This document shows positions 1 to 64,000 of a stretch of DNA of 64,000 nucleotides, one piece after another. The DNA lies in NCBI RefSeq assembly GCF_032854445.1, contig NC_088297.1, forward strand, positions 26,963,915 to 27,027,914. Direction: 5' to 3'. The translations under genes were made by a program, and so were the position numbers. The notes beneath the pieces were generated by a model. That model was not told the DNA's origin. It saw only the letters and a program-made list of their open reading frames with translations, and did not search any database. Origin of the DNA: Liolophura sinensis (lineage: Eukaryota > Mollusca > Polyplacophora > Chitonida > Chitonidae). Each line of letters starts with the position of its first letter. Position 1 is the first letter of the stretch.

Positions 1-59
1 CAAACAAATAAATAAACAAATTATTCTCTTTGATTTATTCTTGATTACGTTTCACTTAC

Positions 60-194
60 CTAGATACACGCCTCCCTTGTTCCTGATCTGCATGTATATA
101 ATCCCCAGAGTGAGGACGATGACTAAAAGTATGGCACCCACAAGTCCTAACCACCAGAGAGACATTCCGGCAGAGGCGGGCTCCCTGTGCAGAG
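60..194 (-). CDS. Gene A exon: stalk, transmembrane segment and start of tail
   Basis: Acceptor TCATACAG, donor CTAG|GTAAGTG; phase 1 at both ends. A short stalk (LHREPASAG) precedes a hydrophobic run (LGLVGAILLVIVLTLGIIY), then MQIRNKGGVYL with basic residues as a stop-transfer signal. Six of the 44 whole codons differ from gene B, with no synonymous change. Confidence 0.9.
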
Positions 195-24945: not shown

Positions 24946-25637
24946 AACTCACTCATCAAAGTTGGATTTTGAGAAATATCAACTCTGATAACATGGCTGT
25001 TAATTTCACAGTGAAAGTCATTTGAGTTATTCGGCAGTTGAACTGATCAGGTAAATATTAACATAATTTCTATTAGCACCTCGACCTTAGATTACTTTGC
25101 TGGCTTCTGGTTCCAGCACTAATAAAAGTCCATTTCAATACTGTCTTACACGGAAAGTTAGGTTAGCTTTCAAGATCTGTACATAGTACCTGTCTATTTG
25201 GGTAATAGAAAGAAAAGTAATCTCAAAAATTTAATATCAAGCAATATGTAGGTTATTTATTTATTTATTAATAATTGTTTAACCGCATACCCAAGAATGT
25301 AGGCCTATGCATATTAAACACCTTTCGTATAAGCAGTCCTAGACGTCGGACAAAAGACGATGAGCAGATATCGTGTACACTGTATATCGGAAATTCTTTA
25401 CGTAGGTCTACACACCCAGCTATATTCCTGTCCTTTCAGTCACGAAGCTAAATGGACCTCAACAGATCCGGTTTAACTGTTACTAAAGACGTTTTCGGTT
25501 GTAATGTAATTTGTCTCTTAAACAGAAAATACGTGGGCAGACGGCCGTGAGTCATCCAACTGTGTTCACAAACATTTCAAAGCAAATTCAACACAATCAA
25601 ACTAGGTCTCTTATCAGCAAACGCTTCTCTCTGTCGC

Positions 25638-25903
25638 GGGGCCTCCGTGGCTCAGTTGCTTAGCGCGCAAGCGCAGCGTAATGATCCAGGAGTCTCTCAC
25701 CAATGCGGTCGCTGTGAGTTCAAGTCCAGCTCATGTTGGCTTTCTCTCCGGCCGTATGTGGGAAGGTCTTCAGCTACCTGCGGATGGTCGTGGGTTTCCC
25801 TCGGGTTCTGCCCGGTTTCTACCCACCATATTGCTGGCCGCCGTCGTATAAGTGAAATATTCTTGAGAATGGCATAAAACACCAATCCAAAAAAAAAAAA
25901 AAA
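25638..25903 (+). mobile_element. SINE family 1, full length
   Basis: Intact head GGGGCCTCCGTGGCTCAGTT, B box GGTCGCTGTGAGTTCAAGTC, central region and a poly(A)-like tail of 15 A. It is probably one of the younger insertions. Confidence 0.9.
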
Positions 25904-36781: not shown

Positions 36782-39700
36782 GTAAGATTCCTTATTGGTT
36801 GTTTGCTTTGGTTGTGAAATTGGTATATTTTACATGCGCTCTGTTCGAGGGGACTATGTGACAAGTGGTCTAAGACGTTCGTGTGACCAATTACTCAGTC
36901 TTTACGCTCGCCAATGACCCCTTATTCATTCCGCCAATATATATGATACGCATATCTGTACGTCACACGTCTTCAGTGAGCAAGGCCGTTTACGCACTCT
37001 TGACGCTCTTTAACGACTCATGAGTTCAACCAATATCATCTGCACATCTGTACGTAACACGTGGGAAAGTTCGTCAGTAACCTGACAAAGGTTGATCGTT
37101 TATTCCGGGCACTTAAGTTTCAACCACCCATGTATGCATGAAAATAACCGCCATCGGGCTAAACAACAATAAATTAAGTAAAACAAAAAAATAATATAAA
37201 ACAATAGCTCTTAATGTAACTCTTAACTACAGCGCATGTAAAGATGCACTGATTTCTTCTTGACGTGTGTTTTTTGTTTGACGGGTACGTTCTCAAACGT
37301 TCATGAACGTCCTCGTGCGTGTAGTGCTTCCACCAGGACGGCCGTTCACCTATTGGATTCCATGCTGACTGCACTTTTCATGATGATGTGTCTGCATAAT
37401 TATCTTGTCCGATTTCACTCTTTTGTGAAGCCCAAGCAACTCCAGATTCTTTCCTACAATGAAGTCCGTTATCAGTCTTCATTGATGTTCTGGATCTGCC
37501 GCCTGTCACGCTTGCATCATCACGTAGTCAGGATTCTGTTGCACCGAAAGAAGTCTGGTAACCCCGTCAGCCTGATTTCCTCCTCCCTTCAGACAGTTCA
37601 CTATTGTATATGCGAAATGCGTAATTTGACTTACAGAAATGAGCTTTGCAATTATACTTTACTGTTTGTATTTTATCACCTGCTTCCATTTGGAGGCCTG
37701 TATGTAGCTGAGCGTTTTAGTTAGCACCTGGTTAGTGTGCTTGTGCGTCACAATGACCCAGAAACCTATCACCAGCGCGGTCGTTGTGAGATCAAGTTCA
37801 GCTGATGCTGGCTTCCTCTTCGGTCGCGCGTGGGAAGGCGTAAATAGGCCTAAGTAAATAAATACATATAAAATGTTCTCAATTGGGATTACAGCCTTAA
37901 ACCCGATAAGGCCTCATTCTGCTCGCACGCTTCAAGTGTAAAATGAACCCATCCTTACTAAACATCGATCAATAAAGCACATAAATAAATTACTGCATGT
38001 TAGACAGCAACTAATGAATTATTTCCTATTTCATGTGATGTTCTGCTTTTTCCTTGTCCCGAATACAACGCCAGCCTCTGGACGTGAATGAAGCGGAAGT
38101 TGACAGACCTGGTAGGGTTATTTACACTTTTTTTAGAATCTTTCACTTCTTGACTTTTTTTGGTTCACCTTGGATTTGAATTTTCAAGGCAAAACCTTCT
38201 TTCCGGGGATGTTGCATTTGCTTTGTTTCCAGATAAAAGATTCATGTAGGCCTATATATACTATAACTATGGATACAGACTACCTTAACATTTTGAACCG
38301 CTATTTGTTGCACTGAAGTTTATGCAAATGAAAATCTAGAAAATTAAATAGATTCTTTTTTCTGGTGTGTCATCATACCGGAAAACCTCTTTTAGACGCG
38401 TTCGCTGGTTATAAAAATAACTCACGCCTGACTGGGTAAAAGTGATAACATGGCGGCGCTTTAGATTTTTTGCTTCCTTTTAACCGGTGATATCAGGGTT
38501 ATACGACATCACAAAAATAAACGGCATACTATATGGATGCATATATACATTGGGTCTAGTGATGTCTTTTCTCTTGTTGGGAGCGGAAGACCCAGGATCA
38601 ACCCTGGGTCGAGTCACACCTAAGACTTTAAAAGAGGAAGTTGTAACTTCCTCGCTTGGCGTTCAGCATGAAGGGGATAGTGCAACGACTGGTTGACAAT
38701 TATCAGCATAATGGCTCGGGCGGTGCGGCTTACTTGCCTTCGGTAAGGCGTCTCAGTGAAGCAGCACTAAATAAAAGAGCGGTGGAAATCCGTCCAGCAA
38801 CAAGGAGGCACATTACACGCACTCTAAGGATTCCTTCGTCGTCATATGACTGAAAAATTAAGTACGACGTTCAACCTCAATCACTCACTCACCTAAGAGC
38901 TTAGGCCAGAAAATTTAAATCAAATACATATATCATAAGTCAAGAGCTCCGTCCCACTCATCTGAACAACTCAGTACATAACATCAATATTAGATAGGAA
39001 AATTAGGCAGACTAGATGTGAGTTCATTAATGTTTTCAATTTTCTTCTGTAACCAGCTCGCTGGGGGAGATACTGCGACCAGTCCTATTACAACAACAGC
39101 GGTGTGATAACAAGTCCTAACCACCCTCAGAATTATGATAACAACCTAGACTGCGATTACGTCATCAACCCGACGCTGTACGGACGCTATGAGATGCGAT
39201 TTTACCTCTGTGACTTCGCTGTGGAATCGTCTGTATTCGGCGGATGCTCAGACTGGGTGGACTTCAACGGGACGCAGCGGATTTGTGGGATTCAATCGGG
39301 CGAGATGAAGTGTGAGTGTGGCGGCCAGCTCGTTACCATTTGCGCGATGGCAGTGCTATCCTGGTCGTCAGTTGGCAAGGAAGTTTTAGATTCTGATAGC
39401 TGACTGCCCGTAAAGGCTTGGTGAAAGTAAACGAAAAGCTTCGCTCATTCAGGCATTTAAAAACCACTTGCCATACACGGGTATGGTGTGCATGGTTGTC
39501 TGTATGTCATGATTGTCTATACGTCATGAATGTCTGTACGTCATGATTATCTGTACGCCATGGTTGTATGTGTGTCATGGTTGTCTGTGCGTCATGGTTG
39601 TCTGTACGTCATGAATGTCTGTACGTCATAATTGTGAATATGTCATGGTTGTCTGTATGTCATGATTCTCTGTATGTCATGGTTGTCTGTACTTCATGAT

Positions 39701-45281: not shown

Positions 45282-45318
45282 TTACTCTTGGTAGTCGTTG
45301 ATGTCATCGTTTTCATCC
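45282..45318 (-). CDS. Gene B terminal exon: end of tail and stop
   Basis: Acceptor TGAATTGCAG; one base completes a Ser codon, then DENDDINDYQE and TAA. The C-terminus is acidic with one tyrosine four residues from the end region. An AATAAA overlaps the stop (minus strand, 45283-45278), so either the 3' UTR is extremely short or another signal is used. Confidence 0.78.
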
Positions 45319-48300
45319 CTGCAATTCAAGAGCAAAGTTAACCATAAGAGTGATTTTCTATAGACCTTGAATTAGTATGCGACTAGGTCGTGGATTTCTC
45401 CCGGGCTCTTCCTGGTTTCCTCCCACCATAATGTTGGCCACCGTCGTATCAGTGAGATTTTCATAAATACGGCGTATAACACAATTTAAACAAATAAACA
45501 AAGTAAAGGACTAAAATGGCATAAAACAGAAAACAAGTAAATAAATTATAAGCTCATTCTAAATGGTCCCTTGAATGGCATCCTTGACCTCCTAAGTTGC
45601 AGCTTACCTGTTCGTTACCACCAGGACACATATCTATCATGTTCCTACTTATTTTTCTCAGGATATAACAGTATTTTAGTATCAAAGAACTGAGTACATA
45701 TTTTAAGGGATTCATAATTTTATTAGTAAAAGGGGTCTTTGGGAGTTTGACTTACAGCCTATGCCCGCTTTCCACCTACCATAATGCTGGCCGCCGTCGT
45801 GTAAGTGAAATATTCCTGAGTACGGGGTGAAACACCAATCAAATAAAGAAATACCGGCTGACGGCGCTTACATGTGATTTGGATATTTCGAATCCACTAT
45901 TCGTCATTCAGTGGGCTGTTTCAAAGCACATAATGTACATTACCGTACCAAAGAAAACGCTAGAAGTTTTAAGGATCGAAAGAAAAGTCAATCAGACACC
46001 AAAGCGACATCACAAAACAGAAGTTAGATCTCATTAATATGTTGTAAATGTCTAGCGCGCGCACTTTGCTTTCTACATTCAAAAGCACGTGTAAGAGCAT
46101 GCGCACAAGACACAGCAGACTCACGAGCGGTTTAGTTCCTGCATCTTGTTTTCTTCGGCTAACTCTTTCACAGGATCGTGTCCGGCCTGGCGCTCCCATT
46201 TGTCCACTGAAAAGCACAACAGAGATATAACGATTAAATTTGTTTATTTATTTGATTAGTATTTTACGCCGTACTCAAGAATATTTCACTTATACGACGG
46301 CGGTTAGCATTATTGTGGGAGGAAACCGGACAAAGCCCGAGGGAAACCCACGACCATCCGCAGGCTGCTGCGAGACCACGCCGGAAATCATTTACAACAC
46401 AGAAACAGATTAGCCTGTTTTGTGATTAAATCTGTGTAATGCATTACAGCGGCACATATCGTTGAACTTCGAAATGATCAAAGTCGCCTGATAGTGTATA
46501 GTGTAATTTTTCTTTAGTGTGAATAACATAGGTCTCAGATTGGTGTTTGGTGTTATGTATAGAAACACCGCTAAATTCTGACGACATAAATACTAAATCG
46601 CCCCTTTCGAATCACCGATCACCGTCTTTACATACGTATCAGCAATCCATTTGAGCATAGTGCCAGATTATGGACGACATGTGAAATTGAGGCTATAGGC
46701 TAGCTGTAGAGGAGGCGTTCTGATCTCATGAGTTAACGCATTCGAATCCGGTTGTCTGTGATATGCCGGCAACTAAAAACAAATGCCGATGGTATTGACA
46801 GAGCTCTTAACCCAGTTTTAGACATCCTGGGACTCGATCGCTGTGGTTTTAATGTAATACGCATGGAAATGTGTTAAAAAACCAACTGAATGCATCAATA
46901 GGTGGAGAAGAAACCAAACGCAACAGAACGTTCTGTTCGCTTCCTTCTCATCGATAAATTATCCATGCATACAAACTTACCATTCTATCCAACAAAAATT
47001 AAACCAAAATACGAAAACTAATTTCGTTATATTTATTTCCTTTATTTTTTTTCTGTTTTGACGGTTGTTTGAAAATCTGATGAAAAGACTTGCGCATCAC
47101 ATTCGTCAACGACAAGTGGTCCTTAACGAACATTTGACGGCACAAACGGTCACTCGAGCATTCCCAGCCGCTTATTGTCACCAAGGCCTCACTAATAAAG
47201 AGATTTGGCCAATTTACAAAGTCTCAGTCCAAGGCACGGGTTGAACTCCAACCTAGCCTGCTTAAAGTTGGAGTCGAGCACTAGTGAGCCACGTCATATC
47301 ATCGAACCTGAAAAATGTAAAAACTGCCGTCTGCATGTCTATTGGAAGAAGAGGGCGTTAGCACATCAGCGCGGTGCAATGACCCTGGAGGTTGTTTTTC
47401 AAAGGGGTGGTAACGTTATGCCGGTCGTAAATACCAAGGCGGCATATGCCGTCAGTATCTCGCGTCATAGTGATTAGGCCGGCGTAACGTTATGGCGGTT
47501 GTAAATACCAAGGCGGCATATGCCGTCAGTATCTGACGTCATGGTGATGAGGCCGGCGTAACGTTATGGCGGTTGTAAATACCAAGGCGGCATATGACGT
47601 CAGTATGCGACGTCATGGTGATTAGGCCGGCGTTACGTTATGGCAGTTGTAAATACCAAGGCGGCATATGACGTCAGTATGCGACGTCATGGTGATTAGG
47701 CCGGCGTTACGTTATGGCGGTAGCAAATACCAAGGCGGCATATGCCGTCAGTATGCGACGTCATTGTGATTAGGGCGCCTTAACATTACGAACCCTTTGA
47801 GAAACAGCCCCCAGGAGCCTCTCGCCAATGCGGTAGCTGTTAGTCCTATAGTTCAGCTCATGCTGGCTTCATCTCCGGCCGTCCGTGGGAAGGTTTGCAG
47901 ATGGTCGTGAGTTTACCCGTGGCTCTAACCAGTTTCCTCTCACCATAATGTTGGCCGTCGTCGTGTAAGTGAAATATTCTTGGTACCTGATGCTGCCTCG
48001 CTTGGCGCTCAACACTGAGAGATTAGAGCAAGGAAACAGGACTGTTTGACCTGGTATCAGTGTATAATGTGACTGGATGGGGTGTCATTTATGGTGTCTT
48101 TGGCAAGATACATGTACTCCAGTGGCGGTAGCAATTTGGCGGCAGGAACTCGCCCGGCCACGAGGAGACGCTGTATATGTACACACACCTAATGACTCTT
48201 CGTCGTCATAGAACTCAAAAATTGTTAAATACGACGTTAAATCCCAAGCGTTCATTCACTCATTCATTCATTCTAGATTATGATTATGACATCTGTACCC

Positions 48301-51300
48301 GATTTGTGACCCCTTTCAGGAGAGGCAGTAGATAGAAGGCTACAGTCCTCTGCATTAGGAGAGTATACATAGGCTTACTATTAAAATGACTTTTACCTTA
48401 TTACTGGTCACATTAAAAAAACCTCTTTCCAGAAACACCACATAATATGCGTTATTTTTCAAAACAGTCTGGTCAAATGGTAAACAAATAAAGTCCAAAA
48501 CTGATCAGTAAACCAATCAGAGTCGTCCTCTTTTTCTGTGAAATAAGTTGCACGCGTGAATAGGAAGCGCGATGGTTTAGGGGCATGTTACGCTCTGTTT
48601 TAGACCAAAGGGAACGATCTGGACCCGGGATCACAAAATGATCTTAGAATTAAGTCAAAATTTCATGCATTAAGTTGGTATATTCCTTTGCGTCATTTTA
48701 GTTCAATTTTGTTGTACAATAACTTATCCAAAATTTATCCTCTCAAGCAATATTTTGCCCTTGGCACGTAAACAAAAACAATTTTACAGTGATTTGAAAT
48801 TTTGACTTAAGTCTAATATTGCTTCGTGATCCCGGAGCCTGAGCGGCAACTCAGAATGTTCTCTAGTGTAAAGCGTGGCTAAAACGTGGCTCTTTGTTCG
48901 TAACCAGAAAATGTCAACACATATTCGCGCGTGTCCCTACTGACATGGTTTCATTTTCGTTGATCCCAACAGAAAGACTGGCCACCGTCATGTACGTGAA
49001 ATATTCTTGAGTACGCCGTAAATCACCAATCAAACAAATAAATAAACAAATTATTCTCTTTGATTTATTCTTGATTACGTTTCACTTACCTAGATACACG
49101 CCTCCCTCGTTCCTGATCTCCATGTATATAATCACCAGAGTGAGGACGATGACTAAAAGTATGGCACCCACAAGTCCTAACCACCAGTAAGGCATTCTGG
49201 CAGAGGCGGGCTCCCTGTGCAGAGCTGTATGACAGATCACGTGATGTATGTTTGTAGCAAATCATTTTCAATCTCACTCTATTCGTAAATGACTACCTTA
49301 TCACACATATTTATGTGGAATATTTTTCCGTTGGATTCTGATGGTGAATAATGATGTTATGTCAGAAAGTTGCCTAATTTATAGGGACAGAAAACATAAA
49401 AATGAAGTAAGCATAAGTGGAATGCATGGCTTTTAAAAACTATCGGATGAAGCCTTTAACTTGACGACCACGGTTCTCTCGCGCGAATCCGTCTTGGTAT
49501 TCCGCGCATGTGCTCTATCATGGTGAACATCACTACCTAGCTCTGTAGGTCAGTGGTTACGTATACTATCACAGCCTTGTCTTGTTCCATAAGATTACCT
49601 TAAACACCTCTGTACTTTCCTTGCTGTCCTTAGTACACTACTGCCGTCCGCCAAATAACGTGTCTGTCCATGCTTATATTGGTTTCAGCTATCAATTCCA
49701 TGTAGGTTTGCCCAGGTGCAATCACTAAAATTCCACAGAAGCATAAAACTGCTGGACATTGGATACATTCCAACTACAACGGCCATGTTTCAATGCACAC
49801 TCTTCACAGTGAGGGGAATCACGAGGGTATCACTACCACTACTAGACAAGTTTGACCTTTTCACACACATGAGGTATCAGTCTCACCTGTAATAACCGCG
49901 CGTTGACTCATAATCAACATTTATCACTAAAAAGATTTCTGCACAAAATATTCTTATTAGTGGTGGCGTCATGTTTAGCTAGACCAGAAATTTGTTTATC
50001 TCATCTGTATGCGCTGTGAGGAGTATGTATGCATGGCGGTTGGAGTTGCTACTGATCCACTTTCTACTAGTTTTATTCTTCTGTGGACTTTCTGGTAACA
50101 ATGTGCACAATGGTACTCTCACCTTGAATTAAGAGCTCATGCGATTAAGAGTGCGAACAGATATATTATTTGACAGACAGCATTAGTGTATTGAGGTCAG
50201 CACGGGAAGTACAGAGGTGTTCAAACTAAGCTTATGGAACATGACAGGACTGTAATAGTATCAGTAATACGCTATGAAACAGGGAATGACGCTGCCTCGA
50301 CTTTTGTTGTGCATGGCGAAGTAACGGAGGCAGTGATGTCATAGTTAGCTCGCTGCCTCGACTTTTGTTGTGCATGGCGAAGTAACGAAGGCAGTGATGT
50401 CATAGTTAGCTCACTGCCTCGCTGCCTCGACTTTTGTTGTGCATGCCGAAGTAACGGAGGCAGTGATGTCATAGTTACCTCGCTGCCTCGACTTTTGTTG
50501 TGCATGCCGAAGTAACGGAGGCAGTGATGTCATAGTTAGTTCGCTGCCTCGACTTTTGTTGTGCATGCCGAAGTAACGGAGGCAGTGATGTCATAGTTAG
50601 CTCGCTGCCTCGACGTTTGTTGTGCATGGCGAAGTAACGAAGGCAGTGATATCATAGTTAGCTCACTGCCTCGCTGCCTCGACTTTTGTTGTGCATGCCG
50701 AAGTAACGGAGGCAGTGATGTCATAGTTAGCTCACTGCCTCGACTTTTGTTGTGCATGGCGAAGTAACGGAGGCAGTGATGTCATAGTTAGCTCACTGCC
50801 TCGCTGCCTCGACTTTTGTTGTGCATGGCGAAGTAACGGAGGCAGTGATGTCATAGTTAGCTCGCTGCCTCGCTGCCTCGACTTTTGTTGTGCATGCCGA
50901 AGTAACGGAGGCAGTGATGTCATAGTTAGCTCACTGCCTCGCTGCCTCGACTTTTGTTGTGCGTGCCGAAGTAACGGAGGCAGTGATGTCATAGTTAGCT
51001 CACTGCCTCGCTGCCTCGACTTTTGTTGTGCATGCCGAAGTAACGGAGGCAGTGATGTCATAGTTATCTCGCTGCTTCGCTTCGCTATCTAGACATATGG
51101 TACTGAGTTTGCGAAATGTCCTGTGCCGGGTTCTACAATAGGGCAGTTTTTAATAATGAAATCTACCAATATGACCCATAACGACAACTTACTATATCCA
51201 GCTTTCTTTGACGTCACAGTGAATTTGAGTCGCCTGGTTGTCTGGGGAACGCCTACAGTCACTTCGCAGACGTACTCTCCCATGATGTTCGAAAACTCAC

Positions 51301-54300
51301 TGGCTTTGAGGTAGCTCGTGTCGATAGTCAGGTGACTAAATCCGTCCTGTGGATAAACCTGGATCCCGACGTCAAGGTTGGATGTCTTTAGCTCGAAGTT
51401 TGCGTGGTGCCAAATGTATTTCAGGTCATCTTTGTAATCTGGGTCAACAGTGGCACTGACGTTGAGATGACCTTTCCCCCCAGGGACTATGTCCACGTGA
51501 CTGTCTGATGCGTTGATTTGAATGGGCTCTGCAGACAATAGTAGTAAGGAGAACAGTGTTTCGAATAAATAAATGAATGCTTGGGGTTTAACGTCGTACC
51601 TAACAATTTGTCAGCCATATGACGACGAGGAGTTAGGTGCGTCTGTGTATATACGTGTCTTCATATGGCAGGGCGAGTCCATGCCGCCAAAGTGCTGTTG
51701 CCACCGAAGTATCATGCCGAAGACGCAAGACAAGACACCCCACCCAGTGACATTATGCTGACACGGGACAACCAGTCCTGTTTCCTTCCTCTAACCGCTC
51801 TGAGCTGAGCGCTTAACGAGGCACAAACAAGTACCGACCCAGGTTTGATTCTGGGTCCCCGATTTCAAGGCTGACGATCTAACCATTAGGCTACCAGTGT
51901 TTCGAACAATTGCTCAAACCAGATGTCTGCTTAACCGAAGCCACTTGATGGGTGTAAAAAAATTGTTACTTTACTTGGCAGATGGATGTTTGATTACTTA
52001 TTATTCGCAAGTCACGTATTGATCCTACAAGATATGTAAAAAAGACGGTCACGTCTGAAAACATGACGTCAGTACCGTCGATCTCTCGGTAGATTTACAC
52101 AAGATGGCTGCCTTTGACTTCAATTACGTTACAACAGATGATTTGGAGAACATTTTGATGACAGATGAGAGAGACAAAAACAAGACTAATATAGAGAGAG
52201 ACCAAAACACTAAAATAGAACCGATTTTAGGTGAAAAGTTAAGCCTCGTGAATACAACCAACCGATATGTGACAAGCTGTGCGGCCATCTACGTCCTGTC
52301 TAGTCCTCTTCTTTCAACTTTACAAGGCAATTTCTGCAAGCATCTTCTTTCAGCTTTTAAAACACAATCTCTTCAAGCATCTTCTTTCAGCTTGTTAAAG
52401 ACAACTTCTCCAAACATCTTCTTTTACCTTTTACAAGACAACTTATCCAAGCATCGTCTTCCAGCTTTCAAAAGACGATCTCTCCAAACATCGTTTTTCA
52501 AATTTTACAAGACAACTTCTTCAAACATCGTCTTTCAACTTTTTACAAGAAAACTTCTCCAAACATCTTCTTTCAACTTTTACAAGACAACTTCTCCAAG
52601 CATCGTTTTCAATTTTTACAAGACAACTTTCCCAAGCATCGTCTTTCAGCTTTTAAAAGGCGATCTCTCCAAACATCGTTTTTCAAATTTTACAAGACAA
52701 CTTCTCTAAACCTCGTCTTTCAGCTTTTAAGAGACGATCTCTCCAAACATCGTTTTTCAAATTTTACAAGACAACTTCTCCAAACATCGTCTTTCAGCTT
52801 TTAAAGGACGATCTCTGTAAACATCTTCTTTCAACTTTTACAAGACAACTTCTTCAAACATCGTTTTTCAAATTCTACAAGACAACTTCTTCAAACATCG
52901 TCTTTCAACTTTTTACAAGACAACTTCTCCAAATTCTTCTTTCAACTTTTACAAGACAACTTCTCCAAACACCGTCTTTCAGCTTTTAAAAGACGATCTC
53001 TCCAAACATCTTCTTTCAACTTTTTACAAGACTTCTCCAAACATCATTTTTCAAATTCTACCAGACAGCTTCTTCAAACATCGCCTTTCAAATTTTTACA
53101 AGACAACTTCTCCAAATATTTTCTTTCAACTTTTACAAGACAACTTCTCCAAACATCTTCTTTCAACTTTTTACAAGACAACTTCTCCAAACATCGTTTT
53201 TCAAATTCCAGAAGACAACTTCTCCAAACATCGTCTTTCAACTTTTTACAGGGCAACTTCTCCAAATATCTTCTTTCAGCTTTTACAAGACAACTTCACC
53301 AAACATCGTTTTTCAAATTCTACAAGACAACTTCTTCAAACATCTTCTTTCAACTTTTTACAAGACAACTTCTCCAAGCATCGTTTTCAATTTTTACAAG
53401 ACAACTTCCCCAAGCATCGTCTTTCAGCTTTTAAAAGGCGATCTCTCCAAACATCGTTTTTCAAATTTTACAAGACAACTTCTCCAAACATCTTCTTTCA
53501 ACTTTTTACAAGACAACTTCTCCAAACACCTTCTTTCAACTTTTACTAGACAACTTCTCCAAACATCGTTTTTCAAATTCTACAAGACAACTTCTTCAAA
53601 CATCGTCTTTCAACTTTTTACAAGACAACTTCTCCAAATATCTTCTTTCAACTTTTACAAGACAACTTCTCCAAACATCGTCTTTCAGCTTTTAAAAGAC
53701 GATCTCTCCAAACATCTTCTTTCAAACTTTTACAAGACTTCTCCAAACATTGTTTTTCAAATTCTACCAGACAGCTTCTTCAAACATCGTCTTTCAACTT
53801 TTTACAAGACAACTTCTCCAAATATTTTCTTTCAACTTTTACAAGACAACTTCTCCAAACATCTTCTTTCAACTTTTTACAAGACAACTTCTCCAAACAT
53901 CGTTTTTCAAATTCCACAAGACAACTTCTCCAAACATTGTCTTTCAACTTTTTACACGGCAACTTCTCCAAATATCTTCTTTCAGCTTTTACAAGACAAC
54001 TTCTCCAAACATCGTTTTTCAAATTCTACAAGACAACTTCTTCAAACATCTTCTTTCAACTTTTTACGAGACAACTTCACCAAGCATCGTTTTCAATTTT
54101 TACAAGACAACTTCCCCAAGCATCGTCTTTCAGCTTTTAAAAGGCGATCTCTCCAAACATCGTTTTTCAAATTTTACAAGACAACTTCTCTAAACATCGT
54201 CTTTCAGCTTTTAAGAGACGATCTCTCCAAACATCTTCTTTCAACTTTTACAAGACAACTTCTCCAAATATCTTCTTTCAACTTTTACAAGACAACTTCT

Positions 54301-57300
54301 CCAAGCATCGTCTTTCAACTTTAAAAAAACTTCTCCTAACATCTTTCAACCTATCAGGACAATTAGTACAAGACAGTTACCCGTAGATGTTCAGCCAACT
54401 TGTTCAAGAGAACTTTTTCGTAGGCTTACAGAACAACTTCTCCAAACATTCCAGATAACTAAATCAAGAAACAAGGAAACCGGACAAAGGCCCATGAATA
54501 TCAATGGCCGTCCGCAGGTTGCTGCAAGACCTTCCCACATACGTCCAGAGAGGAGGCCAGCAAGAGGAAGACTATGTAAAACTGTGCTGGCTGTGTCTTA
54601 GTAGATATTTACTGGGTTATACAGATGACGTTTGTTACTTGACTCTCACTCACCAATCACCGTTAAGGTGGCGTCGCTGACATGCGTCCTATTGTCTTTT
54701 GTCACGTGACACTGTATACTGAAGGTGTCTCTTGGTTTCTGGACGTTATTCACAACTAGTGTGTCCCTGGACTCGTTGATTCTTTTGTCCTCTGTAAAAA
54801 GAAAGTACAGGTAGAAAGCAATGTAATATATAGAAGATATTGCACAGTGATGGTTGAAAATCCTAAATATTTTTCGTCTGAGAGGTGAAAATAATAACCC
54901 ACGAGACACGAAGCGTCGATTGGGTTATCACTTCCACCTTTCACAAGAAAAATATTTTTGATGTTCAACATCCACTGTGCAACATTCTATTTATTATTTA
55001 TATTTTGACAATATGTAGGCCTTCACAGACTTGTGTATATAACGTGACGTCGCACATGGCGTCTTGTTTGACATCGTGTCTTATTGCGTGACGTAAGAAA
55101 AGCTAAAATCGACTGAACTTGTGTTATGGCGTCATTAAGGTAAGCACGAATTGGAACATAATAAAACACAATGTTTCTTTGTGACCTCAGGGCGTCTGGG
55201 TGTGTAATAACAAAAGTGATATCTAACTATAGCTAGTGAGATATCACTTTTATCACTGAAGGACATTCTGACATTTCACCTATATATAAATAATAAATGA
55301 TGCTAACTCACGTAACTCACCATGCATATTCTGAATATGGGTTATTTTTCCTGTCAAAAATAATGTTTTTATTCAAATAAGCACAACTGAAAAACGTTTC
55401 CACCAAAGGAAGACCAACTCACTTTTTGTACAAACCTACTGCTATATGTATGCTGCAGCATTAAATTAACATTGGGTATCTGGATGCTGCTTCACTCAGC
55501 ACTCCATCAATGCCAACTTAAGTAGGCGAATCACAAGCTCGTGCTACTTCAGTTTTACTTAATACTGGTGCATGCATTCACGTCATAACAACGACGATTA
55601 TCAGATTCCGTGTCGAGTTTAACATCAACCTCGAACATGTGAGGATCTCACACGTGATAACGTCATCACGTATTCTCTTGGGAAATGGTCAAATTCTTGC
55701 TCAAACATGATATCAAATAGTGAACACCAGCATATGGCATGAACTCGACACGATGTCTGGTTAACCTCCCATCGAATCGCATCGGAGTATTGGCCCTTGT
55801 ATTGTCCAACCCATTCAGCACCACCTCATCAGCTGGCTTTACACAAAATTAAATTGGCCTACACAGATAAATTTAAGCGATTGTACAAATCTCTTACATG
55901 TACAATCTAGACCAGTGACGTCTTATTAATTGCAACTGACATCAATTGACTTCAATGCATTTTATTTATTTATTCGATTGGTGTTTTGCGCCTTACTCAA
56001 GAATATTTTACTTATGCGACGGCGGTCAGGATTATAGTGAGTGGAAACCGGGCAGAGCCCGGGGGAAACCCACGACCATCCGCAGGTTGCTCAAAGCATT
56101 TTAAATTTGATACCGTTTAGGCATTTACATGAATAGTAAGAGTAAAATTCTGATGAAAACTGACAAGACACGAAATTTCACCAGTATCATACCAATCATC
56201 ATACTGTCGTCTCTTCTCAGATTTTCGGTTTCCTCCCACTATAATGCTGGCCGTAGTCGTATATCTAAAGTATTCTAGAGTACTGTGTAAAACACCAGTC
56301 AAATAAATAAATAAATAAATTCTCTGATTTTACTCTCTATCCTGCAAATCTTTTATTATATTACATAGCAATAAATTTACGATCCTCACCTCCGACGGGT
56401 TTGTCATTAATGAACCATGCAATGTCGGCATCAGCCTCGTTCACAACACACTGGAACTCCTGAGTGCTCCCCTCCGGCAGTACCATCATCATTGGATCGA
56501 TATGTGAAATCAGCTCCTCTACAGAGATAATGCTACATCCGTTATATCATACTACATACACAGTGCATGCGCCGCTCTATCTACGCTCACTTTACATCAC
56601 TGCCATCACAAGACAAGCTTGACCTTTGGAGCATGTGAGGCATACAAAGGCTTGTTTACGATAAGCCTCATCGCGACACTATTTAATCAGCATTGAGCAA
56701 AAAAAAAAGTTGTTTCACGTGTTGATTAGAATCATGATGTCCATACTGAGAGTAGAGTAGAGTGTTGTGGGAAACATTCATTGTTATGGTTACAGCCTTA
56801 CTTGTTCCTACAAGATTCAACCATACAATGAGTTTCTTATAGAAATGTCCACAATTCGGTAGTCCTGTATGGTCGAGCTTTCTGACCACGAGGCTGAGAT
56901 CGTGTATTTGAATCCAGTTCTTATTTACTGGATTGCAGCCTTACGTCAGTAGAATTGTCTGGTACTGAGCTAAGGGTGGTGCTTGTGGTAGTTCTCTGCC
57001 TGGTGTTCTGCGCCAACGTGAACCCGACCAGCGACGTGCAGTTGAAATATATAAATATAAGTATTTTCTGGGGCCTCCGTGGCCTAGTTGTTGGCGTGCT
57101 AGTGCAACACAATGGCAAGGGGCCTCTCAGTACTGCGACGGCTGTGAGTTCAAGTCCATCTCATGGTTTCTCAGCAACCTACAGATGGTCGTCGGTTTCC
57201 CCAACCATAATGCTGTTTGCCGTCGTCGTATAAGTGAAATTGTCTTGAGTACAGAGTGAAACACCAATCAAATAAATAAGTAAATAGTTTGTTTGGGTGT

Positions 57301-60300
57301 CGATCTGAGCTCTGTTTCATTATTCCCAGCTTGTTCAGACCCATACTCTTCCATTCAATAACCTGGAATTCGGTCTTTTCGAGTAGTATTTCAAACAAAA
57401 GTTGTATGTCAAACAAAAACATATTTCCTTCAGTCAATCCTACGGTGGTTCTGACTTCATAACCAGGAAAAGTATAGACTGTAAATTCACAATTGTATAC
57501 AAACCTACGAGACGGTCGCACTCGCAATCGTCCGGAAAAAGATTCTTTAGGGGGCTTACTGATTTTTGCTATTATAATTAAGAGAACGAAATATAAGCAA
57601 CTGTTGTAAAAAAAGATGATCTTAGTTCTCTGAAGAGCAGTCGAATCAAGTGATTTGAAAATGGCGGTTTGTGAAGTTCGGCTGTGCCTGAGTGAAGTTT
57701 TGGTTGTTCTGCTACAGCATATCACGTGGCGGAACCTTTTTTGTCGCGTACACTGAGGACTGCGCAGGCAAAATGGTCATTCTCCAGGTTTGTCTGAGTA
57801 ACGATCCAGAGCGGTCGATTTGGAGGTAAGCTGGGAACATGGCAAACCGATTTCAGAGCTAGTTTGGATGGAGCATCAGGACAGAGCGTTTTCGTGAGTC
57901 AGGACTATCAATAGGGGGAGTTTCGAGTTGGAACTCTTTTGTCGTCAAAGGTAAAAACAGTCCCACTGTGTCATGTGGCTTGTAAAAAATATTAGGCATT
58001 ATTTGTTGACATTAATTTTCCGTTCACCTGTCTCGCCCCTTTCTCGAGGCACAAATGACACGTCTTTCCTTTAGTAACTTCACATACGGTCAGATTGTCA
58101 TTTTTCTCCACCATTGTTCTACTCTAAATTACTTTTTATGACACTTTTTTCAGACGCCCATGTTATGGTGAATATTATCAGAAATTACGCTAAGCCTTCA
58201 GAACACAAAACCCTTATATGGACATAGGAGAGGCACACTACACTTACCAGTGACGGTCACCTGAATCGTCTGCTTGACCTCACCCCCGGAATTCTTCGCC
58301 TTACAGGCGTATATTCCCTCGTCAGTTTTTTTGACCTTCCGCACTGACAATGAGTACAGCGACCTGTCCACCTTATGTCTGTTACTGAGGCTGCCACCAG
58401 GGGGAATCCACGTCACTTCCGGTTGAGGGCTATGAACGTAGTAAAGATTTTTTCACGGGTACTGGCCGGATTGTTATCACGAATAGATTTGTTTGATGGA
58501 TTTTAGTGATTTGTTGACGCTTAATACTATAATGCCCACTTAAGCCCAGTTAAGCATGCATCACAGAGGCTTTATTACCATTCTACAGTTAAAAGTTTAC
58601 TGTGCTATGTCTTTTCACTAATTTACCCCCAAATATTTTTACGCCGAGCATTGCAGTTAACTTGAAAAAAGTCGTCAAAATCAGTGCCAGCATACATTGA
58701 ATTGACAGGAAGTTATGTCCCTTTACCTCTGCATGAGATTTCTGTGCATTCGAGACCACGCGCCTTTCTACGTGATCCTAAGGTACGTAAACAAGACTCG
58801 TGTATATATGGGCGCCATCAGCGTGGTGATTTCCCTCGAAAATTTGGGGATAATGATTGATGGGCTAGTAACAGATATTTAATAAATGTTTTCAGATTCA
58901 TTGAGTCTAAATCTGTGCCGGGGCCTCCGTGGCTCAGTTGATACGGGGGCAGTAGATACATTTGTATTTTAGAATGGTTTCTATGAGGCAACAATAAACA
59001 CGGAACTGAGGGCGTCATACTACTAGTTGGCTGTCTCCTGCCCAAACTCCGGTATTCACACTGACTGCAGAAACCGGTCAGAAAAGAAAAGTAATACCGT
59101 GTCTTAACTGTGGAATGTATTGTACTTACAGGCCATCCACAATGCACTGAAGCTCTAGCCAGTCCCCGGCATTAAGCGTAGTGTTTTCAGTGTAATACAC
59201 AAGACGTGGCGAACGCGGCTGCGGCTTTTCGCCTGGAAACACAAATGGCATTTCATTTTTCTGTCATGAATATCACCAAGATATAGCTACATATTGAGCA
59301 ATCAACATTTTACGGTTTTCTATTGGTTAGAGCGTGTCAGTTTATTTGTCACACGGATAGTAAAGGTGTTTTGAAACCTTGATAAGCCATATCCACAAAA
59401 AAGCGATATGTTATTCATGATTTTGGTAGCGTATAACAAAGACCTTAACAGTTATTATTCTTCTCTGGATGTAATCCGTCAATGTCACTAATCAAATCAG
59501 AAAATTTATTAAATCCTGTCGTGTGAAAAAAACTACGTTGATGTCAAGAAATTTGCAGGTGTAAACAACCAGCCCTTGAATACTTGAAAGTCATAGGAAA
59601 CACTAAAATGAAGTATGTATAGATGAACGACCATTAACAACTGCCCAGGAAACTAGCTGGATTTATGTGTTCTTTTTGTAGAATTTGTTTCACCTAGTAA
59701 AGTGCATTTGAATATTCTATTCTGACGTCACGTAAGGATTTTTACTACATAACACACATTACACTGCTACCTCTCATCATTCAAAATGCATATACATATA
59801 GATCTGTGAATACATTCGCCGATTTGACCTTGGAACGGATTATATCAGGTAAAACTTATAAATGTATAAACGTAACTGACATCTTTTGGGTCACAAGAGA
59901 TCTTTCAACACAATTTTACACTCTTAGCAAGATTATAAAAAAAATAAATCCAACTATTTTCCTGGACTGTTTTTAATGTTCTTTTATCTGATATATACTT
60001 CGTTTTAAAGTGGCCATTGCGTTGAAAGCGACAATCTTGTTGACTGATTGATTGATTGATTTATAGATGAAGTAAGGGGATACCTGATTTCACTGTCAGC
60101 TTAGTAGGGCTGCCGTACACTCGGGCTCGACTCTCAGCGTTAAACACGGAGCAGTTGTACGTGGCGTTGTCCTTCGCCGAGTCATTCACAGTGAGCGGTA
60201 AAAAGTGAAGATTACCTGTCAACAGGAGATGTCAAGTCAGGTGATTGCTTACATTTAATTGCATTTTCGCAACTGGTTACTTTATATATTGGAATTTGTA

Positions 60301-63259
60301 TGCATTTACGCAGAGAAATTTTTGCATCGATTTCATTATTGCCTTTTTTTAACACAACGTGTAGATTATTTCAAACTATTGAATAGATGAACATAAATTC
60401 ATGTAAATGAATTTACACTTTGTAAATTTTTGAACATTCGGTACGGCAGGTGTTTAAACGCTTATAACCAATAATATGACTTGATGACACCAAAACTGGC
60501 GTCAGAAAACAAAAACGCATTTTGAGACTTAATTTCTTTACTGAGAAATGCATCTGTGTGTGGTGTCCACATCCAAAGTGTACAAAGAGTGACCAGTAGT
60601 GGTAAGGCAAATACCATGGAAAACTTGTATACTGCTTCCAAGCAGTCTGTACACACGATTTTTATTGTCTGCTTCAGAATAAATTTGCTCCATACCCTCT
60701 TCACGGCAAACCATTCGAATCTATGGATTCTATGCTCTGTCGATAATAGGTATTCTGATACGAGAGAAAATTAACGAAATCCGTGCAAGTCTATGAGCTC
60801 TTCGTTCCAGCAGAAACAAGTCATCTGTATAGCTTGTTTCTTTCAGAAACAGGCTTTTTTGGTTGGAAACAAAAACAAAAACTGCATGTTCCCAAGGTTG
60901 GCATTTTCTAAAAGAATATAAGTTAGTTATTAGAGGGGAAATATGGAAAATTCAGTTTGAACTGCATAAAATGTGAGTAAATGTCTATACCCCGTCTCTA
61001 TATCCGTCACTGTGGGACAGTTACTTGTATTAATCTAACTGAAAGTTTTCACTTGGTTTCACCGTGACAAATGAGCGATAAAGTTTGAATGTCGTGCTGT
61101 TTTGTCCACTTAGCACCATTTTGCTGTTGATTTTGCCATTTCTCTGAACTCAAACATTGTGTGTAATTTCAGCGTGGTAAGATACAGGCGAAGTTTTGAA
61201 AAGCAATCTGTTTATCAGTCTATGTTAAATTGCTTTTGTTTCTCTTGCTAAAAAGCAGTTGAGCATTCAGTGTAAAATAACCCGATAATTGTAATTATAT
61301 TCCATTTCATCTCAGTTTTGGTAGCGTTATGGACAGAAATTCTTCTGATAGAACTCATTGTGCAAGCTATTCTTTTTTTTTTGATTGGTGTTTTACGCCG
61401 TACTCAAGAATATTTCACTTATACGACGGCGGCCAGCAGTATGGTGGGTGGAAACCGGGCAGAGCCCCGGGGAAACCCACGACCATCCGCAGGTTGCTGT
61501 CAGGCCTTCCCACGTACGGCCAGAGATGAAGGCAGCATGAGCTGGTCTTGAACTCACAGCGACCGCATTGGTGAGAGGCTTCTGGGTCATTACGCTGCGC
61601 TAGCGCGCTAACCGACTGAGCCACGGAAGCCCCGGCAAGCTATTCAGATGACTTGTTCGTGTATAAGAACATGTGTGACGCGTGTTTCGCATTTATTTAT
61701 TTAATGCTTGTCAAACAGGCGTTTTGGAGTTAACCGCTTAAGTACACTACCAAAACTAAGCGTCCGTTTAGGTCTAAACGGTGTGATGTGAGAGGTAAGC
61801 ACTACTGTTTAGGAATTACACGGCATTGGTCACCACTGGCGTTTAGTCACTAAGCACTGCTTTCTCCACACTTATTTAGGTTTTAAGCCATCATTTTTAA
61901 TGTCAACTGGTTTTTAAAAGCCTCATCGGTGTTTGAAAATCATGTGGGGGGATGGGTGGGTGTGGAGGGTGGTGGGGATGGGTGTGGAGGGGGGATAGCT
62001 GGGTGTGGAGTGGGGGGGGGGAATGACTGCCATGTAGAATCTATACGATCTTTTTTCCTGTGCAGCCCACAGGATTTGGTGATGTATTGTGTAAGAAGTT
62101 AGCAGTTTTGATGGATACTTTTCTTACAAAACGACAAAAGGCAGTTTCCAGAGAAGAAAAAAGTGATAACAAATAAAATACGCTTTCTGCTTGCTTTCAG
62201 CTTCTATAGATCGATGTCGAGCTGTTGTTGTGGGTAAATTATACTCAGGGAGTTGCTTTCGCTATCCCATTACCTCGCTATGGTGAGGCCTCGCTGCCTT
62301 GAGGTAGCAAAGTGATGTAACAAGGATATGCTACTCGCTGTCCCTTTACCTCGCTCCGGTGAGGCCTCGCTGCCCCGTGGTAACGAATCGATGTGAAAAG
62401 GATATGCTATCTCGCCGTGCCATTACCCAGCTACAATGAGGCCTCGCTACCTCGAGGTAGGAACCGATGAAACAAGGAAATGCTATCTCGCTGCCCCATT
62501 ATCTCGCCACAGTGAGGCTTTGCTGCCTCGAGGTAGTCAAGCGATGGACCAAGGATACGCTATCTCGCTGTTCCATTACTTCGCTCCGGTGAGGCCTCGC
62601 TACCTCGAGGTAGCCAAGCGATGTAATAAGGAAATGCTATCTCGCTGTCCATTACCTCGCTGTGGCGTGGCCTCGCCGCATCACAGCCACATATATGAAC
62701 AGTTGCAATCAAAGCGCATCTGAGATACATATTTTATTGTCGACAAGTTATATGATATCATAGTACACGATTTGAGTACTGATTTCACTCATTCGCCAAG
62801 ACAATACCTTGCATCTTTCCAAATTTCCAACTGTTCACTGTTTTTCTTTGAATGATTCCGCCTTATCTTCATACTTTATATACTTTCTTAGTTATTTGGT
62901 AGTTCATGTTAAACTTCTTCCCAAGAATTGGTCTTGCGATTATTCACCTGGAACGTCCAGCTTGGTTGACGGCTGGTATACGAATATCTGTTTCGACGCA
63001 TAGATTAACTACCTCGACATTAGTTGATTTCACAAATCTTGTCATACCCTTATTGTGTAGTTCTACAACCAGAACTCACCTAACTGGTCCACGGTAATTC
63101 GCCGGCTATGCGGAATTTCACTCTTACCAAGGTACCAGTTAAAGTCCTTGAGGGCAGGACGTGGCTTGCTGTCAGGTCGACTACGGCAGGGAAGGGAATG
63201 ATTCTCACCGGCGTACCCCATCACCTCCTCCGGCATTTCCGTCGGGAATCTGAACAAGT
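45282..63259 (-). CDS. Receptor gene B: paralogue of gene A with complete cytoplasmic tail (5' end off window)
   Basis: Exons in transcript order: 63080-63259, 60084-60215, 59130-59232, 58248-58429, 56390-56518, 54654-54791, 51193-51528, 49090-49224, 46125-46206, 45282-45318. The frame is open throughout and ends in TAA. It encodes Ig2-Ig5, the membrane segment and a tail of about 45 residues. Ig1 and signal exons, at 15.2-20.9 kb in gene A, are expected beyond 64000. Compared with gene A over 1335 shared coding bases I count 27 amino-acid replacements and 5 synonymous changes, concentrated in Ig5 and the membrane-proximal exon. No stop, frameshift or broken splice site was found, so both copies look functional. 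It is convergent with the CUB gene, whose stop codon lies about 4.7 kb away. Confidence 0.87.
45385..45512 (+). mobile_element. SINE family 1, 3' part (gene B intron, between the tail exons)
   Basis: GGTCGTGGATTTCTCCCGGG to a tail AAACAAATAAACAAA, inside the last intron of gene B. Confidence 0.8.
45755..45851 (+). mobile_element. SINE family 1, tail part
   Basis: CCACCTACCATAATGCTGGC to AAACACCAATCAAATAAAGA. Confidence 0.8.
46125..46206 (-). CDS. Gene B exon: membrane-proximal cytoplasmic tail
   Basis: Acceptor TGTGCTTTTCAG, donor CGCTC|GTGAGTC; phase 1 in, phase 2 out, matching the transmembrane exon. It encodes VDKWERQAGHDPVKELAEE and continues NKMQELNR. With the preceding exon the membrane-proximal sequence is GGVYLVDKWER. 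From memory this resembles the GG-x-Y-x-V-x-D-K-E stretch just inside the membrane of L1/neuroglian-type adhesion molecules. That relationship is inference. An incomplete SINE lies 30 bases upstream, within the intron. Confidence 0.83.
46238..46376 (-). mobile_element. SINE family 1, 3' part
   Basis: TTGATTAGTATTTTACGCCG to GCAGGCTGCTGCGAGACC, 30 bases from the gene B tail exon. Confidence 0.85.
46400..47340. other. Gene B intron, no recognised features
   Basis: Unique sequence between the tail exon and the split SINE; one tRNA-like B-box motif (GCATTCGAATCCGG) near 46740 stands alone. Confidence 0.45.
47352..47985 (+). mobile_element. SINE family 1 split by another element
   Basis: The head (GCGTTAGCACATCAGCGCGG, TGCAATGACCCT) ends at 47388 and resumes at 47812 with CAGGAGCCTCTCGCCAATGC and the usual body to AGTGAAATATTCTTGG. 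In intact copies these two parts are continuous. Confidence 0.82.
47389..47811. mobile_element. MITE-like insertion carrying 74-bp tandem repeats
   Basis: Ends GGTTGTTTTTCAAAGGGGTG and CGAACCCTTTGAGAAACAGCC are inverted repeats. The interior is about five 74-bp units (TAACGTTATGGCGGTTGTAA, ATACCAAGGCGGCATATG, CAGTATGCGACGTCATGGTG). Inserted at the CCCAGGAG site of a SINE. Confidence 0.78.
47985..48278 (+). mobile_element. SINE family 2
   Basis: TCGTCGTCATAGAACTCAAA and TACGACGTTAAATCCCAAGC near the end, followed by CATTCACTCATTCATTC. It follows directly after the split SINE. Confidence 0.7.
48620..48843. mobile_element. Foldback MITE, copy 2
   Basis: GACCCGGGATCACAAAATGA at the left and TTCGTGATCCCGGAGCC at the right, with inner arms TTAAGTCAAAATTT and AAATTTTGACTTAA. 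Same family as 26724-26944. Confidence 0.78.
48960..49051 (+). mobile_element. SINE family 1 tail at the left edge of copy B
   Basis: GACTGGCCACCGTCATGTAC to ACCAATCAAACAAATAAATA. Bases 1-21 of the window match the tail, so copy A probably has it too. Confidence 0.75.
49090..49224 (-). CDS. Gene B exon: stalk and transmembrane segment
   Basis: Equivalent of 60-194. The segment begins ARMPYWWLGLVGA and ends IIYMEIRNEGGVYL. Gly to Arg, Ser to Pro and Leu to Tyr at the outer face, Gly to Val in the membrane, Gln to Glu and Lys to Glu at the inner face. The Leu to Tyr codon needs two base changes. Confidence 0.9.
49449..49790. other. Segment present in copy B and absent from copy A
   Basis: About 340 bases between CTATCGGAT and CATGTTTCAATG, which are nearly joined at 408-426 in copy A. 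No inverted ends or target duplication were seen, so a deletion in A is as likely as an insertion in B. Confidence 0.8.
50288..51085 (+). repeat. 61/69-bp VNTR in gene B, about twelve units
   Basis: Expanded counterpart of the array at 919-1135. Units alternate between 61 and 69 bases depending on whether an extra GCTGCCTC is present. Confidence 0.93.
51193..51528 (-). CDS. Gene B exon: Ig5
   Basis: Equivalent of 1245-1580, also lacking the first Ig cysteine. Replacements (A to B): Ser to Phe, Ala to Val, Lys to Gln, Asn to Tyr, His to Gln, Ala to Thr, Lys to Arg. Confidence 0.9.
51566..51900 (-). mobile_element. SINE family 2, copy B
   Basis: Duplicated counterpart of the element at 1618-1952 with a few substitutions. 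Confidence 0.75.
52104..52290 (+). pseudogene. Copy B of the MAAFDFNYVTT open frame
   Basis: Same as 2156-2340, with His to Asp at the thirteenth codon. In this copy the frame stays open into the repeat array as far as 52709, for 201 codons. Confidence 0.25.
52320..54345 (+). repeat. 37/38-bp minisatellite, about 54 units (gene B intron)
   Basis: Counterpart of 2395-4935, about 0.5 kb shorter and with a different order of subtypes. Confidence 0.93.
54654..54791 (-). CDS. Gene B exon: second half of Ig4
   Basis: Equivalent of 5250-5387. KRINESRDTL replaces KRIYEYRDTL; otherwise unchanged. Confidence 0.88.
56390..56518 (-). CDS. Gene B exon: first half of Ig4
   Basis: Equivalent of 6986-7114. 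The intron just upstream of the acceptor is 10 bases shorter than in A, but the TAG acceptor is kept. Tyr to Asp, Ala to Val and Asn to Asp relative to A. Confidence 0.87.
57070..57286 (+). mobile_element. SINE family 1, copy B of the 7673 element
   Basis: Same insertion site and almost the same sequence as 7673-7879, so it predates the duplication. Confidence 0.85.
58248..58429 (-). CDS. Gene B exon: second half of Ig3
   Basis: Base-for-base identical to 8841-9022 as far as I can read, including both splice junctions. Confidence 0.92.
59130..59232 (-). CDS. Gene B exon: first half of Ig3
   Basis: Equivalent of 9708-9810. Replacements relative to A are Ser to Arg, Ser to Asn, Ala to Thr, and Ala to Val two residues after the B-strand Cys. 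Confidence 0.88.
60084..60215 (-). CDS. Gene B exon: second half of Ig2
   Basis: Equivalent of 10664-10795. Only one coding difference was seen, Met to Thr two residues before the F-strand cysteine. Confidence 0.9.
61372..61634 (-). mobile_element. SINE family 1, copy B of the 11894 element
   Basis: Same insertion as 11894-12167, with a shorter T-run (11 against 22 bases). Confidence 0.9.
62262..62690 (+). repeat. 76-bp minisatellite, copy B
   Basis: Counterpart of 12822-13253, same unit number with scattered substitutions. Confidence 0.9.
63080..63259 (-). CDS. Gene B exon: first half of Ig2
   Basis: Equivalent of 13650-13829 with the same acceptor and donor. It begins in phase 1, so upstream exons are required and lie beyond 64000. 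Against gene A: Asn to Glu, Thr to Met, His to Tyr, Lys to Glu, and one synonymous change. The Asn change removes the NVT sequon. Confidence 0.88.
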
Positions 63260-63429
63260 CTGATGAAAGAAGCCTATTGTTTTAAGTCAGAACTTATTGA
63301 AGTGGTCAAAGTAACAATCTCACTATGCAACTTTAGTGACGGCGTCTTCTGTCAGACTTCCCTCGATCTCACATTTCGTGAGGTCACGGTGTTACATGTA
63401 CATGTGCATAAAAATACACGAATAATTTT

Positions 63430-64000
63430 ATAGACATGTCAGGAATAGGCATTAGACATGACATGAGTTGGTAATAAACGTGTCAGGAATTGGCATTAGA
63501 CATGTCAGGAATCGGCAACAGATATGACAGGAAAGGGCATTCGACATGTCAAAAATTGTCAATAAACATGTCAGGAATTGGTATTAGACATTATAGGAAT
63601 TGGCAACAAACGTGTCAGGAATTGGCAACAGACGTGTCAGGAATTGGCAACACATCAGGGCTTGGCATTGGACATGACAGGAATTGGTAACACACGTCAG
63701 GAATTGACATTAGACATGTCGGGAATTGGCCATAGACGTGACAAGAATTTTTAAATAGACGTGTCAGGAATTGGCAATAGGCATGACAGGAATTGGCATT
63801 AGACATGACAGGAGTTGGCATTAGACATTTCGGGAATTAGCATTAGACATGTCAGGAATTGGCAATAGACATCTGCGAAATTGGCAATGGACATGTCAGG
63901 AATGGACATAGACATGTGAGGAATTGGCATTAGATGACAAAAATTGGCAAAAGACATGTCAGAAATAGACATAGACGTGTCAGGAATTGGCAGTAGACAT
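63430..64000 (+). repeat. 22-bp minisatellite, gene B (runs off window)
   Basis: Counterpart of 13998-14738 with one or two units missing near 63482; cut by the window end. Confidence 0.92.

Follow-up and report, generated by a model that had tools for sequence, protein, structure and literature searches.

Two closely similar copies of a surface-receptor gene lie about 49 kb apart in the genome of the chiton Liolophura sinensis, and the question raised by this locus is why they differ mainly by amino-acid replacements, and whether this marks a recognition receptor under diversifying selection, as an original prediction had proposed. The window, by which we mean the whole 64 000-nucleotide stretch analysed (contig NC_088297.1, positions 26,963,915 to 27,027,914), belongs to a genome whose paper was issued under the name L. 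japonica (PMC11068029), since corrected to L. sinensis (PMC12441733). No report of this chiton receptor gene was found in the open-licence literature.

Copy A (1-14733) and copy B (49031-64000) form a pair of direct repeats with about 34 kb of unrelated sequence between them, and both carry the receptor gene on the minus strand. They aligned end to end, except for differences in array length and a 333-bp stretch (49449-49781) present in copy B and missing from A. The homology runs to both ends of the window, and the limits of the duplication are therefore not visible within it. A 37-bp tandem array occupies the same intron in both copies (2380-4938, ~69 copies; 52310-54343, ~55 copies), where the forced alignment of A to B gave up to 15 % mismatch; on the plus strand of this array three frames are open for hundreds of codons through repetition. 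The window also holds a ~265-bp interspersed element at 11901-12168, 25637-25903 and 61370-61634 (~90 % alike, one inverted) and, between the two gene copies at 39053-39403 of the plus strand, a CUB-domain ORF (Pfam PF00431, E 4e-6).

Exons E1-E8 (1335 nt) were splice-checked, with AG/GT boundaries at all eight and open frames in both copies. The predicted exons are as follows, those of copy A being placed by an E1-E8 translation that equals the annotated protein P0001 (described below) from MPENV.

63080-63259, minus strand: copy B E1, first half of Ig2 (AG/GT, open frame, neuroglian Ig2 homology)
60084-60215, minus strand: copy B E2, second half of Ig2 (splice sites, frame, neuroglian homology)
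59130-59232, minus strand: copy B E3, first half of Ig3 (splice sites, frame, neuroglian homology)
58248-58429, minus strand: copy B E4, second half of Ig3 (0/182 sites differ from A)
56390-56518, minus strand: copy B E5, first half of Ig4 (splice sites, frame, neuroglian homology)
54654-54791, minus strand: copy B E6, second half of Ig4 (splice sites, frame, neuroglian homology)
51193-51528, minus strand: copy B E7, fifth extracellular domain, putative Ig (open frame, splice sites)
49090-49224, minus strand: copy B E8, transmembrane helix and juxtamembrane RNxGGxY-like stretch (splice sites, frame, neuroglian homology)
46125-46206, minus strand: copy B E9, cytoplasmic tail (match to the P0001 tail with one replacement, R to W)
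45282-45318, minus strand: copy B E10, last coding exon, ending DINDYQE and stop, without FIGQY
194-60, minus strand: copy A E8
1580-1245, minus strand: copy A E7
5387-5250, minus strand: copy A E6
7114-6986, minus strand: copy A E5
9022-8841, minus strand: copy A E4
9810-9708, minus strand: copy A E3
10795-10664, minus strand: copy A E2
13829-13650, minus strand: copy A E1
15205-15377, minus strand: copy A upstream exon, second half of Ig1 (AG/GT, in frame to E1, neuroglian Ig profile match)
16821-16917, minus strand: copy A upstream exon, first half of Ig1 (in frame to the 15.3-kb exon, Ig1 alignment), which may begin further upstream, e.g. at 17013

The joined exon translation was near-identical to P0001, a 476-residue protein annotated as 'neural cell adhesion molecule L1-like [Liolophura sinensis]' (3 proteins in its cluster; of 8000 candidates scored, 3 matched), and copy A from MPENV to the end of E8 was identical to its first 437 residues. 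P0001 starts inside E1, without the Ig1 exons at 15205-16917, and is probably short at its start because these two upstream exons splice in frame. No signal-peptide exon was identified in the window gene model. The tail of copy A is known from P0001 only, and differs from that of copy B by the single R to W replacement.

A profile of 19 arthropod neuroglians picked up Ig1-4 (154.7 bits) followed by the transmembrane/RNxGGxY segment (22.2 bits), and the best distant database match was a mite neuroglian (E 2.7e-44; 7999 candidates scored). In the PDB, Ig1-4 (residues 3-366 of 378) retrieved neurofascin first (E 7e-35) and contactin-5 next (E 1.6e-34); with Ig2-3 alone, contactin-5 came first and neurofascin seventh. 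Contactins are GPI-anchored, and so the juxtamembrane match, which BLASTP returned as a segment covering the transmembrane and RNRGGKY-like stretch (E 2e-6), favours L1 over the contactins. As judged by homology, the gene is a descendant of the L1CAM/neuroglian family. It is predicted to be L1-derived rather than a full L1-type cell adhesion molecule (CAM), because it is without fibronectin domains and FIGQY: an FnIII profile found nothing better than E 1 in the window's six-frame ORFs of at least 20 aa, E7 is spliced directly to E8 in P0001, and FIGQY is absent from both tails, each of which ends DINDYQE (with no FIG in that of copy B) and stops where the L1 tail continues to FIGQY.

The domain encoded by E7 had been labelled Ig5, a label that is insecure. 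No Ig match was found for E7 in Pfam, the PDB or the neuroglian profile; it has one cysteine and scored 0.3 bits, which is not significant, against the neuroglian Ig5-6 profile. Neither this profile nor that of FnIII brought up a further L1 exon among the window's ORFs of 20 aa or more in all six frames. An ITAM, sought as two YxxL/I motifs at 6-12 spacing, was not found in the copy B tail, and one ITIM-like motif, IIYMEI, lies at the membrane edge of copy B. Searches for a canonical chiton L1, with queries allowing longer proteins, gave no named chiton besides P0001 among the matches listed, several of which are nameless (21 of 21; the best 120 of 147; candidate lists capped, with 7999 scored in one search), which does not establish its absence.

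With the gene model in place, the presence of an invertebrate surface-receptor gene in two close, replacement-heavy copies was borne out, with Ig1-4, a transmembrane segment and 27 replaced against 5 synonymous codons over the eight exons (1335 nt), a count that proved exact on re-derivation from the splice-checked exons. The 27 replacement codons hold 29 nucleotide changes, two codons having two changes each. Replacement-to-synonymous counts were 4:1 in E1, 1:0 in E2, 4:2 in E3, 0:0 in E4, 3:1 in E5 and 2:0 in E6, and the counts reported earlier of 6:0 for the transmembrane exon (E8), 7:1 for E7 and no change at the 182 sites of E4 were all reproduced; the unevenness of replacements over exons is within chance (p 0.076). 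Four estimators placed dN at 0.028-0.031 and dS at 0.012-0.017 (NG86: 0.0286 and 0.0169), with a dN/dS of ~1.7-1.8 and a bootstrap interval of 0.75-5.5 that includes 1 (bootstrap P(dN/dS <= 1) 0.12). Replacement versus synonymous change gave a Fisher p of 0.31, and the replacement share against the neutral fraction a p of 0.05-0.09.

A dN/dS indistinguishable from 1 would also be expected if one or both copies were pseudogenes changing neutrally. We regard this as very improbable, as frames and splice sites are intact in both, none of the 20 unmasked indels falls in an exon (2.9 expected, P 0.057), all cysteines and tryptophans are kept (7 Cys and 7 Trp common to A and B), and there are no stops against 0.9 expected, the last being weak evidence. 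Because the frames, splice sites, cysteines and tryptophans are intact, without an exon indel, both copies look functional.

The original prediction also held that the exons are more diverged than the introns. Exon divergence was 34/1335 (2.55 %), against 160/9310 (1.72 %) for non-exon DNA with tandem arrays masked and 38/2906 (1.31 %) for non-exon DNA within 200 nt of exons; masking removed array stretches 50285-51095, 52285-54365, 62255-62680 and 63425-64000 of copy B (3894 bases) and all gap columns, and was also applied to the non-CpG comparison, the neutral expectation and the clustering counts given below. The claim held by Fisher test against all non-exon DNA (p 0.038) and against the 200-nt flanks (p 0.005), but not under block resampling, which takes the patchiness of the divergence into account (p 0.084), nor at non-CpG sites, where exons showed no excess (21/1179 vs 130/8691, p 0.45); merging adjacent changes into events gave p 0.055. 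CpG sites account for 13 of 34 differences in exons vs 30 of 160 elsewhere. E3 differs at 6/103 sites vs 5/785 in its 400-nt flanks (p 0.001, uncorrected); 400- and 800-nt flanks overlap between adjacent exons, so that some sites are counted twice, whereas 200-nt flanks do not. The A/B pair was picked for its extreme look, and because the finding was selected as extreme, p values of such size carry little weight. The exon excess is weakly beyond chance.

A neutral expectation drawn from the non-exon spectrum, with CpG allowed for, predicted 16.8 replacement changes, 6.7 synonymous changes and 0.9 stops, against 29, 5 and 0 observed. The probability of so many replacements was 0.004 for at least 29 and 0.013 for at least 27, or 0.015-0.035 with the overdispersion seen outside exons. 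This is the evidence against relaxed constraint as the whole explanation, under which both copies drift, the CpG-rich exons have a higher mutation rate and so many replacements arose by chance; nor are synonymous changes raised, or any of the 20 indels exonic, as noted above. That reading nevertheless has a substantial claim, although we hold it to be less than probable, as it draws on the lack of an excess at non-CpG sites, the larger CpG share of exon differences, the bootstrap P of 0.12 and the character of the replacements themselves, which by their mean BLOSUM62 score are as conservative as random replacements (-0.37 vs -0.38).

Diversifying selection, as originally proposed, is not established: the dN/dS interval spans 1, CpG sites contribute part of the exon excess, and the pair was chosen as extreme. 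Selection on the A/B replacements is suggested, and two sequences are too few as proof of it or of a role in immunity or self-recognition. Four N-glycosylation sequons differ vs 1.26 expected (P 0.032, post hoc), at residue 12 in A only and at 77, 121 and 248 in B only (numbering of the 445-residue E1-E8 translation), and that at 248 (RIYEYRD to RINESRD) needs two replacements together. Net charge is 0 in A vs -7 in B (P 0.097, not significant). The 18 replaced residues that align to neuroglian columns have a mean column information of 0.44 vs 0.63 for 301 unreplaced residues (p 0.066, not significant), and 4/18 vs 76/301 fall in top-quartile conserved columns (p 1.0). Neuroglian gave no verdict on which copy is derived (107.0 bits for A vs 113.0 for B; mixed site by site). 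The six replacements of E8 are placed three before the membrane segment, one within it and two after, on the predicted orientation, and those probably in the membrane or on its inner side, G431V, Q436E and K440E, are hard to reconcile with a simple ligand-contact model. The assembly is built on PacBio HiFi reads (PMC11068029), and base-calling errors should show no preference for replacement sites.

The replacement excess and the sequon differences would be expected of an immune or self/non-self receptor diversified by pathogens or by mate or colony recognition. We think this unlikely, since two copies only were seen, E4 is unchanged, changes extend to the membrane and cytoplasmic side and the copy B tail is without an ITAM. 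Chitons are solitary, which makes colony fusion recognition unlikely. Relatives with immune roles, hemolin (PMC9163686) and haemocyte neuroglian (PMC2667480), speak in favour of an immune function.

Divergence between the copies varies by zone (p 4e-8), at 2.0, 1.1 (54366-60240) and 2.95 % (60240-63424), a patchiness that suggests past, partial gene conversion. Exon changes are clustered in places (four in 11 nt, five in 22 nt; P 0.04 each), and clustering is stronger still in non-exon DNA (26 neighbour pairs vs 8.1 expected), for which reason multinucleotide mutation or conversion possibly lies behind the clusters. Should A and B be two alleles of one gene, set in tandem by an assembly artefact, their divergence would reflect heterozygosity, which the genome paper puts at 1.22-1.26 %, close to the 1.72 % of non-exon DNA, with HiFi coverage of 14x only (PMC11068029). 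Such an artefact appears improbable: purge_dups was run on the assembly (PMC11068029), no N bases occur in the window, and hence no scaffold join is visible, divergence reaches 2.95 % in zone 60240-63424, and the blocks lie apart, with 34 kb of unrelated sequence between them. As the window is without a gap, A and B are more likely to be real tandem duplicates than misplaced alleles.

Taken together, the reading we lean towards, somewhat better than evenly balanced, is that of two young tandem copies of a functional L1-derived receptor that have undergone lost constraint and some adaptive replacements. The receptor keeps Ig1-Ig4 and an L1-like transmembrane/juxtamembrane segment, with a fifth domain of uncertain fold and a short tail, and would act in adhesion or recognition, binding partners by way of Ig1-4 with no anchorage to ankyrin. 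After duplication, change at synonymous sites has roughly kept pace with that in the introns, and change at replacement sites has matched or exceeded it, which we read as lost purifying constraint and some adaptive replacements, of which the adaptive part is suggested only. A bolder proposal, that an L1-type CAM was made compact and duplicated and that its copies were positively selected apart, including their N-glycans, for use in recognition, seems doubtful to us; under it, the chiton lineage would have dropped the fibronectin stalk and ankyrin anchor before the duplication. Provided that the gene model is right, this L1-family derivative without FnIII and FIGQY would show how a mollusc has remade a neural adhesion molecule into a compact receptor; should the replacement excess persist as sequences are added, the gene would be a molluscan candidate among fast-evolving invertebrate recognition receptors. 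At present, the A/B pair mainly illustrates how little two sequences tell on selection.

The L1CAM/neuroglian family is best known for neural adhesion. The chiton protein resembles L1-type CAMs (neuroglian, L1CAM, neurofascin) in the order of Ig1-4 and in a transmembrane helix followed by an RN-GG-Y-like juxtamembrane stretch, but is without the fibronectin repeats and FIGQY, and its fifth domain is unmatched to L1 Ig5/Ig6. Alr-like receptors are marked by extreme allelic polymorphism and matching-dependent recognition. The Hydractinia Alr allorecognition genes are, by description, Ig-domain recognition genes too, although they form a 41-gene family (PMC11999971) vs two L1-descended chiton copies. 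Oyster CgIgIT2 is likewise a transmembrane protein of a mollusc, described with five extracellular Ig domains, but it carries an ITAM, and none was found in the chiton copy B tail (PMC11999971). FIGQY is present in all L1-type CAM tails, and fly neuroglian, an L1 relative, is needed in haemocytes for encapsulation (PMC2667480). This Drosophila neuroglian differs from the chiton protein in being a full L1-type protein with FIGQY. Hemolin is a secreted, four-Ig protein without a membrane anchor, which binds microbes and is immune-induced. The chiton protein matched its structure (PDB 1bih, E 3e-19), but far below neurofascin, and differs in having a tail, a further domain and a transmembrane segment. 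Hemolin is described as an insect immune protein with four Ig domains and kinship to neural adhesion molecules (PMC9163686), and if the chiton gene is a compacted L1-type CAM selected for recognition, the two would be parallel derivations, of which the chiton version is molluscan and membrane-bound.
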